Shown piece after piece: positions 4,705-17,337 of a DNA stretch of 64,000 bases. The stretch lies in contig NZ_JAERSE020000004.1 of the NCBI RefSeq assembly GCF_016735585.2, forward strand, positions 310,001 to 374,000. Reading direction: 5' to 3'. The translations under genes and the position numbers were made by a program. The stretch is from Chryseobacterium tagetis. GTDB taxonomy: Bacteria > Bacteroidota > Bacteroidia > Flavobacteriales > Weeksellaceae. The notes beneath the pieces were generated by a model, which worked only from the letters and a program-made list of their open reading frames with translations, was not told the origin of the DNA and made no database searches. Each line of letters starts with the position of its first letter. Position 1 is the first letter of the stretch.

Positions 4705-7700
4705 TTATTTAACCTCTGATTTTACAGAATCTGTTTTTATTTCACTTTCAACTTTCTGCTGTTTTTTATTCTTTTTCTTCTTAAACAGGGAATTAAAACT
4801 TTTACTCCAAACGACCCCCACTCCATATGATTGATTTGCTGAGCCATTTGCATTAAGCCCAGTTCCAGTACCGATAGCATATGGTTTTGAATATCCTCTT
4901 AATATTAATGTCCCATCATTCTTCTTAGAAATATCATATTCTATAGATCCCTCTCCTGATAAGAAATTGTTGGTATCTGTATTTTCTGTCTTAGAAAGCG
5001 GAATTCCAAGACCTGTTTTTACGTTCACTCTTGGTGAAAGTTCAAAACTAACTCCTGCATTGGCTCTGTCTCCTGTATTTGAGTTCTGATCTCCTTTTAC
5101 ATAATTCAAGTCAATCTGGAATTCGTTACTCACTGTATTCAATGCTGAGCCTAATTGTTTTAAGATCATATTATATCCTGAACTTTCCGCTACTCCGGCA
5201 AAATCAACTCCTACTCCACCCGTCGTCATATTAAAGCTATTTAACAAAAGAACAGATCCAAATTGTAATACTTTTTCACCATCCTGACTTAGTTTACTGT
5301 TCAATGCTTCTTTTACCTGACTGGTAACATCTAATGCCGTCAATCCCAATTCGACCTCAGGATTTGTTAATGTTTCTGTAATCTTAGCCTGAAGAAGGAT
5401 TTTAATCGGCTGAAGTCCGCTCATACTAAGATATTCTCCCGTATTAGAAACCATCCTCATATAATTTGCCGTAATATCCAGAGTAGGCTTCATTGCATCA
5501 CCATCCCAACGAATACTGCTTCCTTTTTCTATCTGGAAGGTTTTGTTAAGGATCGCTTTAGAAATAAAGGTTCCGTTGTCTACCATATAAGCTCCACTCA
5601 TAGAAATATTCCCCTGTCTGCTCATCTGGAATTTCAGATTGTTGGCAATTCCTTTCACAGAAATGTTTCCTACATCATCTCCCACCAAAACATTTACAGT
5701 AGTCCCTTTATCGATATCCAGACTCAAATCGACATTCATATTAGCACCAGATTTCTTTTTATCTTCCAATACAATTTCTCCTACTTTATTTTCTTTTAAA
5801 AACCTCAGCATTTTAAATTCTTCCACATTAGTCGTAGAAGCAGAATTAAAGGTAAATGTACTTCCATTTAATGCTTTGAACGGAGTTCGTGGACTGGTTT
5901 CTATATCCAACGAAGAGACCGGTCCGGAAATCGTTGCTTCCCCCTGTCCATATACTCTACCCCAAAATAGGTCGTTATCTTTTTGAGTTGAATTTAAAAC
6001 CAAAAGATTATTGGCATTAAAGAAAAGAGCGACCTGCATTGAAGATAAGGTTTCAAAACGGATATACCCGGAAACTGTTCCCTGCGAGCTAGTTCTGCCA
6101 TCATGCACTTCAATATTATTAAGAATAGCCAATCCTTTTGATAAAGGAATTACCGTATCATCAAATGAATAATCAACTCCTGTAAATAAAAGCTTTAACC
6201 CGAATCCTTTTAATGCAATATCTCCACTATAATCAAGATCACTCAATTTTCCGCTAATTTTAAGATCTCCCGTTGCTTTACCCCGCATGTTTCCAAAGAT
6301 GGACTGTACAAACTGCTGTGTAAATGCAAGATCAAAATCTCTCATCTCTGCAGTAAGATCTATAACAGGAGACGAAGTATTATTGTTTACCGTTCCTGTA
6401 ACGTGCAGGTTGTTATTTCCTAAAACTCCTGCAGAAGCCACTTTGATATCCACATCATACACATTTAAAGAAAAACCGTTGGTTGCAGAGATAGTAATAT
6501 CTCCCATGTCATTTCCATTCATGACAATATCATCTATCGTCATGTCTATAAGGGGTTGCAAGGTACTTTTGTCCATACGGATCTTAACACTACCATTGGC
6601 AAGTCCTTTTATTCCCATGGGATTTCCTCCGGACTGCATTTCCAGAAGTTTCTCTATTGAGAAATCTTTCACTTCCGCGTCCACATAGAAATCTTTCGCC
6701 GATTTAAATGTTGATTCATTGATCTGTAATGAACTGTTATCAGAGTAAATTCTAAGATTTCTTATTTCAAAATCTGCAGTCTTCTTCCTGTATACAATAG
6801 AGTGATCTAAATTCGGATCGGTATCTATTTTCCAATTTACATCATTGAATGCAATTTCAGTAGGTTCAAATTTGAATACAAAGTCACCTGCCTCATTCGT
6901 AGACTGGTTAAAGTTGATTGCATAGCTTTTCAGCTTATTTTCTACGTCATCTTCCGGACTTCCGTGTTTGAAGTTCGTAGAAATTCTGAGCAGGCTATTA
7001 TTTTCATTTTTACCGGTTAAGGTAATATCTCTGAGTATATTTTTATTGTATTCAATCTTATTTATCTTCGCGTACAGTTGCTGATCGAGATTAGCCGTGT
7101 TAATTCTAACCATAATACTATCGACCATAGCACTGTCTTTCTTAATGTCGCCCCTGTCATTGATTTTATAAGAAGGATTGGATGCAGCCAATGCCTTATC
7201 CGCCTCTGTTATTTCCTCAATTTTGGTCATGACATACTTCAGAGAAGCTGCATCAAGATTTAAGATCAAATTATTAGAATTCCCATCATATTCACCATCC
7301 ACTTTTGCACCTTGAGGCAATTTCAGATCTGGCATAAAATAACTGATCAGACCTTGCTCAACATCAAAATTCATGGCAAAATTCTGACCTCTGTACAGCT
7401 TTCTCGGTGGCGGACCAACCAAAATTTTTCCTAAGCCATTTTCTACCATACCGACAAGATCTGCAAGATTATATTTCCCTGAAATTTTACCATTTACAGC
7501 TCCCGGTGCGTCAACATCAATTACTCTTCCGCCATTCTCTATGAAAGTTTTAAGTTTTGCATTAGGAATTTTATACCGTTCTGTTGCCGTTGCAAAATCT
7601 ATATTATTGGCTTCTACATCAAGGTTCAGATCATTTAAGGTAGACATCGCCATTTTTCCGACAACCTGCCCGCTCACGATTTGGTTTCCGGGTTTATCGG

Positions 7701-15767: not shown

Positions 15768-16226
15768 CTATTTTCTAATTGAAGTTATCTTATAAGAAGA
15801 ATCTCCTTTTATTTGATAGAGTTCTTTTGAATGTAAGCTACCATCAATATTATGAAACTCAAAATATCCAGTCTTTAGTTTACTTTGATAACATTTTTGT
15901 GGATTGGAAGATTTTTTAAACCTATATAATCCTTTAGAAAAAAGTTTATGTGTCTTTTTTTCTTCCACTATTTCAGTACCATAAAAATAATTATTTTTTG
16001 AACTATCTATTATTATAAAGACATCAAAATGATCATCATAAATATCGTTGTCTTTTTCTTTATAGACGTAAATTGTATCTATAAACTGATCTGCTTTAAA
16101 TTTTCCATCTGCTTTAATAAAGCCATTTTTATCATAAATACTATAAGACATATCGCTTTCTTTTATACAGGATTTCATTAGAAAAATAGAAAATATTAAT
16201 AATAAAAAACGTGTTTGACAATTCAT
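15768..16226 (-). CDS. Predicted lipoprotein, paralogue of the neighbouring gene
   Basis: 152 residues starting with a short lipoprotein signal (MNCQTRFLLLIFSIFLMKSC), with Cys20 as the likely lipidated residue. The longer frame to 16262 would place 12 unlikely residues before the signal and overlap the upstream gene, so MNCQ is preferred. The mature part shares a pattern with the neighbour at 16228-16734: an opening IYDKNG turn, the motif NYFYGTE, a basic strand before it ends, and a late strand-rich tail. The one-base gap to the neighbour implies cotranscription. The function is unknown; the turn pattern recalls antitoxin YwqK/MORN-like repeats only weakly. Confidence 0.7.
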   Translation of the reverse strand: MNCQTRFLLLIFSIFLMKSCIKESDMSYSIYDKNGFIKADGKFKADQFIDTIYVYKEKDNDIYDDHFDVFIIIDSSKNNYFYGTEIVEEKKTHKLFSKGLYRFKKSSNPQKCYQSKLKTGYFEFHNIDGSLHSKELYQIKGDSSYKITSIRK

Positions 16227-16227
16227 T

Positions 16228-16734
16228 CTATAGCGTAATTTTAGTGTTATATACAGTGTCATTTATTATTATATACTCATCTTTCCCAATAATATTACAA
16301 TTCAAGTCATAAGTGTTGTGAATTCCATATGGTTGGCTACTTGATAATGCTTTTCTAAAGTCTGAATTTCTTTTATATCTAAACGTTCCCATAAGTTTAG
16401 CATTTTTCTTAAAAATAATATATTCTGTTCCATAAAAATATGGTCCTCTCAAGCTATCAATATTAATAGAATCTACAAAAGGTAAATTATGATTTTTACT
16501 ATAAACAATACTACTCGTAAAATAGTCTTTGCGAAAATGTAAATTCACGGCAGCTTTTTCGCCTTTATCAAAAAAAGTAATTTTAGTGTCATCTGCAGTT
16601 TTATCTAAAATATAATTAAGCTTTCCATTTGGATAATATATTTTTTTTGGTATTTCCTTTTTACAGCTTAATAAGAAAATAAAACTAAATAAAATAATAT
16701 ATCGCAGAGTAATTTTATTTTTAATATTACGCAT
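16228..16734 (-). CDS. Predicted lipoprotein, first gene of a paralogous pair
   Basis: 168 residues with a lipoprotein signal (basic MRNIKNKITLRY, hydrophobic core, lipobox LLSC) followed by KKEIPKKIYYPNGKLNY. The frame opens upstream to 16806, but the added 24 residues precede the signal peptide and overlap a hairpin, so the ATG at 16734 is chosen. It shares PYFYGTE, an adjacent FRYKR basic strand and a similar C-terminal layout with the downstream gene, so the pair arose by duplication. It sits in a low-GC accessory-looking stretch beside tRNA-Ser. No function can be given. Confidence 0.65.
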   Translation of the reverse strand: MRNIKNKITLRYIILFSFIFLLSCKKEIPKKIYYPNGKLNYILDKTADDTKITFFDKGEKAAVNLHFRKDYFTSSIVYSKNHNLPFVDSINIDSLRGPYFYGTEYIIFKKNAKLMGTFRYKRNSDFRKALSSSQPYGIHNTYDLNCNIIGKDEYIIINDTVYNTKITL

Positions 16735-16768
16735 TTTAATAATTATTAGAGTGCTTATTCTCAGAACC

Positions 16769-16787
16769 GTGCATAAGAAGTATGCAC
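16769..16787. repeat. Hairpin upstream of the lipoprotein pair
   Basis: GTGCATA / TATGCAC form a perfect 7-bp stem around AGAAG. On the minus strand it is followed by ACGGTTCTGAG, wording that recalls the 3' strand of group II intron domain V, but the matching 5' strand (GAGCCGT) is absent. Confidence 0.4.
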
Positions 16788-17012
16788 CCGTGTAGAGTTT
16801 TTTCATCCCAAGTTTATTTTAGTTTATTGTTATTAATTCTTTAAAACGTTGCAAAAATATTGTTTTTAGTTCACAGAGATTAGATTTATAATAAAATATT
16901 TGTGAATATTCGTATTCCATCATCCTTTTTATTCTTAATCCTATGAAGCAAAGGTAGGGCTGCAATACGACAAAGTGTGTCGTCTCTTATTTTGGGACCC
17001 TGGATATTATTC

Positions 17013-17337
17013 AAGCTGGTCAGAAAACTAGCTATAAGCGGTACTGAAGTGGTTGTAACCTCTTATAAAATGCCTGAAGCTGGTTGGTAAAGTATCTAAA
17101 GGCGGTTATGAACTGCCTGGAAGAGGTTATGAAAAGGGGGTGCGCCAGTTCGGAACCTCTTTTAGGGGCTTAGGAACCGGATATACCCACTTAGAGAAGT
17201 CCCTGTCACCACTTCACCAACCTATTGCAGCCACTTCAGGACCGGCTGAGGGGTGGTTCCGGACCGGGTAAAAGGGGTTCGGAACCGGCTGTAACCACTT
17301 CATCAACCGGTTGCAGGAACTTCAAAACAATCTGCCC
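17013..17337. repeat. Degenerate 22-nt tandem repeat array
   Basis: From 17077 the sequence divides into twelve consecutive units of 21-22 nt: 17077, 17099, 17121, 17142, 17164, 17186, 17208, 17230, 17252, 17274, 17295 and 17316. Each has the core (G/A)(C/G)TT, 2-4 variable bases, then (G/C)(A/G)AC(C) and often GG; the clearest is GGTTCGGAACCGG in the tenth unit. Two further, less regular units precede them (17013, 17047). The core is itself near-palindromic. The stretch is visibly richer in G and C than the A/T-rich flanks and contains no open reading frame. The unit length is not a multiple of three. The rest of the gap from 16807 to 17560 shows only a small palindrome (ACGACA / TGTCGT near 16968-16984). 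Confidence 0.6.

Follow-up and report, generated by a model that had tools for sequence, protein, structure and literature searches.

The array at positions 17,013 to 17,337 of the window (the whole 64,000-nucleotide stretch of Chryseobacterium tagetis DNA that was analyzed) belongs to a low-copy class of intergenic arrays found in the genus Chryseobacterium and in a second genus of the family. In this class, an A/T box recurs about once per helical turn, and the arrays lie preferentially near genes for a protein of about 165 aa and near T9SS-Rhs toxin genes. Support is good for the class as such, for its lattice, and for where the arrays lie. From the period and by analogy with known systems, the arrays might be DNA that wraps around a protein, with DNA gyrase as the best candidate and topological anchoring as the role, a reading to which we assign a probability of roughly 0.4.

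The array of the window and its relatives

Over positions 17,013-17,337, the sequence resembled itself at lags of 21, 43, 64, 86, and 108 (identity 0.42-0.44, and 0.39 at lag 22), compared with 0.25 in dinucleotide shuffles (z 5.7-7.4, reached by 0 of 1000), and the maximum identity over lags 3-119 was 0.444 versus at most 0.367 in 300 shuffles. Because the peaks fall at these lags, the mean period is 21.5 nt. The original prediction of a tandem array of about 21-22 nt was thereby confirmed, including its significant excess over shuffled sequence at lags 21 and 22. The array is degenerate, since Tandem Repeats Finder did not detect it even at a score of 30. The motif fit called 12 units in the window copy, lying in both orientations on one lattice. 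G+C was 0.498 in the array, 0.27-0.28 in its flanks, and 0.349 in the whole 64-kb window, and no ORF of at least 60 aa was found across 17,013-17,337, in agreement with the earlier description of a G+C-rich array without a reading frame. A coding repeat was dropped as a candidate, as the array lacks such an ORF and has a period that is not divisible by three. The lattice model R2, built from 40 segments of array matches, matched the array from 17,033 to 17,334 on both strands (best E 1.4e-10) and nothing else in the 64-kb window at E ≤ 1. Rfam searches of the window at the gathering level gave five tRNAs only, with no match at the array, and searches of ten array loci at E ≤ 1 gave one sub-threshold match, lying off the array; a tRNA or rRNA remnant or a known RNA family was therefore dropped as well.

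The lattice consists of TT-N4-AA alternating with CT-N2-AG, and its single-letter period is ~10.8 bp, or one helical turn. Thus described, each array has an A/T box every ~10.8 bp, G/C-rich words of freely variable sequence between the boxes, and 8-13 called units over roughly 140-340 bp. The unit had been described as about two helical turns, which holds for the 21.5-nt period, although the fundamental is one turn, with two alternating boxes per 21.5 nt. The unit fitted to 25 arrays, S-N-S-TT-N4-AA-G-T-G-G-C-T-R-N-A-G-N, was called 248 times versus 19 in one mononucleotide shuffle; it carries 13.6 bits per 22 nt, and its near-fixed positions are TT, AA, T17, and A20. Tandem steps were mostly 21 or 22, flips of orientation shifted the units by 8 nt and preserved the lattice, and the models matched both strands at the same places. 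In 44 arrays, which were chosen by a model and of which some periodicity is thus expected, the A signal was strongest at 10.85 bp (mean power 13.5) and the T signal at 10.90 bp (13.4), versus a power of 1.6-1.7 in 62 control stretches. The window array, which was not so chosen, had its A and T peaks at 10.80 and 10.75 bp. The S/W signal peaked at 10.83 bp within the range 9.5-12 (bootstrap 10.80-10.90, just excluding 10.75), and its peak near 10.8 was significant against shuffles at the 5% level in only 25 of the 45 arrays, including that of the window; the overall S/W maximum was at 7.2 bp, not 10.8.

By plain BLASTN, the array was seemingly unique to C. tagetis (one of 173 genomes at E ≤ 1e-4, with the best four candidates per genome). 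A second BLASTN query gave only weak matches of 18-47 nt beyond C. tagetis; by eye, two of these loci (L115 and L116) hold arrays and one (L117) does not. An exact 35-base pattern had no match in a named genome collection from which the C. tagetis genome is possibly absent. The apparent uniqueness was overturned by R1, a sequence-only profile built from the five C. tagetis copies, which at E ≤ 0.1 had matches in 71 of the 171 genomes of the genus, C. tagetis included (kinship was ignored in this and all other counts of distribution, placement, and conservation). The element is dispensable, as 100 of the 171 genomes had no R1 match at that threshold. At E ≤ 0.001, R2 matched 79 of 296 family genomes; 65 of these belong to Chryseobacterium and 12 to a single other genus, and the remaining two are borderline cases. 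R2 matches are present in Epilithonimonas records, and this is probably the second array-bearing genus. With neighboring rows grouped and the 150 best candidates scored in each genome, C. tagetis (G000) had five arrays, G067 six, G140 five, G180 two, and G012 none, where G067, G140, and G180 had been picked for their matches and G012 for having none. Among the matches listed, we found no account of such arrays in the open-licence PMC literature, and the class is apparently undescribed so far.

Because both R1 and R2 were built from arrays, their matches resemble the lattice by construction. The best period was 21.5 nt at 18 of the 19 best R1 loci in other genomes (z 6.8-13.3 against shuffles) and 32.5 at one, a selection by model that favors the 21.5-nt period. 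The model-free tests are the lag analysis of the window and the period scan behind the ~165-aa genes, which were found by protein search.

Genomic placement of the arrays

The placement of the arrays is non-random, being near ~165-aa genes and T9SS-Rhs toxin genes. Close orthologues of the ~165-aa gene (E below 1e-60) were present in 49 of 171 genus genomes, and R1 matched 43 of these 49 versus 28 of the 122 others (a hand count that ignores kinship). C. tagetis has two copies of the gene, at C1 and C4:0.8k, each with an array at the stop codon. At 41 named loci, R2 matched downstream of the gene in 33, upstream in none, and not at all in 8; the downstream arrays lay within 500 nt of the stop codon in 29 cases and within 150 nt in 22. 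The period scan covered the 450 nt after the stop codon at 28 of the 30 loci found by protein search (L167 and L175 were left out). Its best period was 21.5-22 at 15 loci, 32.5 nt, equal to three helical turns, at five, and 29 at one (z 4.3-12.7 where present), and seven loci showed none.

Mostly, the ~165-aa gene and its downstream array lie in restriction-modification islands. In raw counts at the 33 loci, ORFs upstream included N6_Mtase (8 of 84), Methylase_S (5 of 84), and Vsr (4 of 84), and those downstream included GmrSD_N (6 of 55) and AAA_5 (9 of 55); glycosyltransferases and housekeeping genes were also found around these loci. Of 49 array loci retrieved, a set in which several places are represented twice, eight adjoin a Peptidase_M24 (map) gene, and these eight come from eight genomes. 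The ~165-aa protein is predicted to be helical (AlphaFold mean pLDDT 80.7), it had no Pfam or NCBIfam match, and the best PDB hit of its model in Foldseek had an E of 2.8, far from the threshold of 0.001. The proteins of loci L154-L183 and L214-L252 have four helices and a P/T/S-rich tail and often stand in restriction-modification islands before the array. Relatives of the protein at which no array was detected occur in Bergeyella, Riemerella, Capnocytophaga, and a Chitinophagaceae MAG.

At ten chosen ~165-aa loci, 43 of the 45 species pairs had arrays more alike than the fourfold sites of the gene beside them, with mean identities of 0.712 for arrays, 0.598 for fourfold sites, and 0.513 beyond the array; the 150 nt upstream of the ~165-aa gene, at 0.712, were as conserved as the array. 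Arrays at one site were 56-86% identical between species (among the pairs listed), and those at different sites shared little beyond the lattice. In related genomes, unit cores were kept while the spacers diverged, which is the pattern that the original prediction had expected of a functional array.

At E ≤ 1e-20, members of the T9SS gene family were found in 164 of the 171 genomes of the genus. The 88 T9SS genes among the matches listed were compared with 77 array places among the rows listed, of which 48 share a contig with a listed T9SS gene and could be tested. Fourteen of the 48 arrays lay 8.7-15.6 kb downstream of a T9SS gene on the same strand, versus 1.23 expected and a maximum of 6 in 2000 random draws, in which contig extent was taken as the largest listed coordinate. 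Three more, in G140, G055, and G079, preceded a T9SS gene by 0.67-0.84 kb, and 31 were more than 20 kb from one.

The C. tagetis genome (4.43 Mb) contained five array copies, at C5:327k (the window), C5:59k, C4:0.8k, C1:760k, and C4:854k, with pairwise identities of 74-93% over 258 aligned columns; in the window, the core common to all five spans 17,038-17,288. These were the only places found by R2 at E ≤ 0.001 (best 150 of 641 candidates scored), and a weak sixth place, C3:227101-227260, was matched by profile R1 alone (E 1.4e-6). At the window, C1, and C4:854k, the array immediately precedes a conserved promoter region that contains a -7-like box and a palindrome resembling ACGACA-N5-TGTCGT. 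A T9SS protein gene comes next, and DUF6443/Rhs-type genes come after it at C1 and C4:854k. Between C1 and C4:854k, the arrays were 85% identical, the fourfold sites of the T9SS genes 73%, and the 165-nt leader 68%. Similar palindromes before T9SS genes of the genus were seen by eye in 12 of 13 upstream regions, being degenerate in L047 and L016 and absent in L015.

In the window, the operator-like palindrome lies at 16,967-16,983, between array and promoter. It is followed by TACCTTTG (16,949-16,956), which we take to be a Bacteroidota -7 box from its consensus; it reads away from the array, and a similar box occurs in the genome's own paralogues. These features and those that follow are on the reverse strand. 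The box points toward a 48-nt leader remnant of a T9SS gene (16,759-16,806, MKKLYTGAYFLCTVLR), 87.5-91.7% identical to five paralogues of the same genome, and its protein type is that of the first gene of T9SS-Rhs operons. Only 16 codons of this gene are left, fused to a lipoprotein-like protein in one ORF (16,228-16,806), next to a second lipoprotein-like ORF (15,768-16,262); neither ORF had a family match. The window copy stands between divergent genes, not behind one, and is a remaining copy at a decayed T9SS-Rhs locus. It was inherited together with a T9SS-Rhs promoter, most of the gene having since been lost.

Contigs C4, C6, and C7 of C. tagetis end inside T9SS genes; T9SS-Rhs loci, and possibly arrays, are therefore under-counted in the assembly. 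Beside the C1 array locus is a T9SS protein with DUF285/PARCEL repeats (L011:6195-7841). A small Cys-rich ORF (MKKKIILTECFKCGKRY..., read from the sequence) adjoins the C4:0.8k array (L010, about 504-674), and a related piece adjoins the C5:59k array on its other side (L009, about 7320-7490). A second, unrelated dispersed family (L094-L113; for example G000:C1:1181133-1181239) has 75-105 nt made of ~11-nt units (CTTCGGGTCTTCTTCGGATC...) inverted around CTTCGGAAAAA-N-TTTTTCCGAAG into a long hairpin, and was found in 34 of 171 genus genomes at E ≤ 0.001 (best five candidates per genome). The single Y1 transposase of C. tagetis (L093, G000:C4:29427) has GGGCTTTAGCCC-type hairpins on its flanks and is likely a RAYT with its own REP. 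The array is unlike these hairpins, and a REP of the resident Y1 transposase was dropped as a candidate. The original prediction had named a transposon or a tRNA or rRNA remnant as contrary findings; the array is no such RNA remnant and differs from the hairpins of the genome's one Y1 transposase.

Possible functions of the arrays

A box every ~10.8 bp would bring equivalent features to the same side of the helix along some 140-340 bp. Such DNA could be wrapped around a protein that reads it through bendability instead of exact bases, with DNA gyrase as the first candidate binder and a nucleoid protein polymerizing on DNA as the second. Many arrays border loci that are exchangeable or very long, such as T9SS-Rhs operons and restriction-modification islands, where they may serve as topological anchors. 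The fit to the G+C wave of gyrase is partial, because the S/W signal is strongest at 7.2 bp, its peak near 10.8 is significant in only 25 of the 45 arrays, and the bootstrap just excludes 10.75. In addition, a conserved RNA fold can be drawn for orthologous arrays, which speaks against the wrapping reading.

That fold is the basis of the view that the array is transcribed, for example in the 3' UTR of the ~165-aa gene, and that its units pair into a long branched hairpin, which we consider unlikely. Ten orthologous arrays had 61 consensus pairs, 16 of them changed on both sides versus 6.2 ± 2.0 in shuffles (reached by 0 of 500) and 1-6 in slides, and shifts of the same arrays by lattice register gave at most 54% pairing and at most 9 double-changed pairs. 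For single helices, however, lattice shifts attained the actual counts of double changes, and inverted-repeat correction could mimic compensation in such arrays. A structure from seven species kept 69-84% of its pairs in three held-out species, but pairs with new letters were kept near chance (3/13, 13/30, and 9/29, versus 2.5, 9.6, and 8.2 expected). Minimum free energies relative to lattice-column shuffles averaged z -2.1/-1.9 over 24 arrays and reached -3 to -5 on both strands at L135, L138, L139, L140, and L147, next to the ~165-aa gene, but only -1.8/-1.4 in the window copy, with no signal at L148, L149, and L150. Among the five C. tagetis copies, 1 of 83 pairs was compensated, and the covariation term was unfavorable. 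Within the unit, the arms had no consistent excess of pairing over positions 1-4 (for TT-N4-AA, WC z between -2.0 and 2.1), and the excess at positions 5-6 coincided with the next boxes; simple local hairpins were dropped, as these arms show no consistent covariation beside the boxes. The lattice is strand-symmetric, and the structured model R3 does not discriminate RNA structure, because it matches arrays of many places on both strands. A DNA-level element is favored over structured RNA, since the words vary freely, both strands match, and the covariation seen at one orthologous site did not hold up in the held-out species, and RNA structure at the ~165-aa gene is possible.

The location of arrays at Rhs loci and inside restriction-modification islands with varied downstream genes might also reflect a recombination boundary, at which shared homology or recombination-prone DNA enables the exchange of toxin and defence cassettes. 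The C. tagetis copies travel with pieces of promoter and gene, one of them beside a truncated gene, and resolvase domains occur in 2 of 84 upstream ORFs. An identity of 56-86% at one site, with little beyond the lattice across sites, is nevertheless poor for homologous exchange, and no integrase was regularly linked among the ORFs listed around the arrays; we regard this explanation, too, as unlikely. The abutting of array and conserved, palindrome-bearing promoter at three C. tagetis loci, including the window, recalls an operator array through which a sequence-specific regulator activates the T9SS promoter from upstream. The arrays 0.67-0.84 kb upstream of T9SS genes in G140, G055, and G079, those between a ~165-aa gene and a T9SS gene (L147/L221 and L240), and the helix-turn-helix genes common near arrays point the same way. 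This appears improbable, as only three of 51 T9SS upstream regions scanned (to 1300 nt) had a clear 21.5-nt array, all of them in C. tagetis, most arrays lie away from such regions, and the near-fixed letters are confined to T/A positions, which is not typical of operators. We consider most improbable a functionless selfish or neutral repeat, such as a decayed insertion or REP-like element, even though the element was undetected in many genomes, its copies are duplicated along with their flanks, and IS200-like Y1 transposase genes stand next downstream of the array at two loci (L214:3418-3888 and L215:3448-3906), where a link to array spread is possible. Against it are the few copies, the strict lattice kept as words change, the conservation above fourfold sites, the non-random placement, and the C. 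tagetis Y1 hairpins, which are unrelated to the array. The four readings offered originally (protein-binding array, RNA source, recombination substrate, or decayed repeat) thus find partial support, RNA structure weakly so, and "decayed" suits the neighboring gene better than the array, because the T9SS gene is reduced to a leader remnant while the array keeps its lattice.

Returning to the wrapped-DNA reading, a fuller version of it, which we put forward with considerable doubt, is that the arrays are a new chromosomal class that stores helical phase, not base sequence. Such a wrapping lattice, either a gyrase loading site or a nucleoid-protein filament, would mark toxin and defence cassettes in the Chryseobacterium group and help to exchange or insulate them, often paired with a dedicated gene for the ~165-aa helical protein. 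If wrapping is true, bacteria hold discrete loci at which DNA topology is set by phase alone, and such loci adjoin cassettes that decide competition and phage defence. A link between supercoiling and islands of gene turnover would then be directly testable in Bacteroidota, and the arrays would provide a sequence-based marker for these islands.

Comparison with known systems

Plasmid iterons and centromere repeats are direct repeats near two helical turns, as in the arrays. Unlike them, the arrays are chromosomal, occupy several sites, and do not conserve their words. Among the ORFs listed at array loci, no Rep or Par gene stood out, nor did a cas gene or an integrase of the kind that accompanies CRISPR or integron attC arrays. 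The lattice is also like the Class A flexible patterns of Larsabal and Danchin, with T or TT every 10-11 bp; these patterns are short and genome-wide, whereas the arrays are long, discrete, low-copy, and dyad-symmetric (PMC1242344).

Like the E. coli gyrase footprint and the Mu strong gyrase site, the arrays have a base composition that varies with a phase of ~10.8 bp along DNA expected to wrap. In the E. coli gyrase motif, G+C changes with a 10.75-bp period in two flanks, and the whole forms one ~130-bp site with a central cleavage region (PMC6379681); the arrays differ from such a single site in being runs of ~140-340 bp with an S/W maximum at 7.2 bp. BIME-2 elements are described as acting as gyrase sites (PMC6379681). 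Like BIME-2 and REP clusters, the arrays are intergenic and G+C-rich, with dyad-symmetric units in both orientations. They number 2-6 per genome in the four bearing genomes searched deeper, in contrast to more than 100 copies of REP clusters in E. coli (PMC2817692). They also differ in lacking a fixed palindrome sequence, with only the TT/AA/T/A lattice positions near fixed, in having a strict helical lattice, and in lacking a regular RAYT link, Y1_Tnp occurring in 2 of the 55 ORFs that follow the ~165-aa gene, each time beside the array. Therefore, the array falls outside the REP/BIME group on both its copy number and its sequence conservation, although by analogy it may work like a member.
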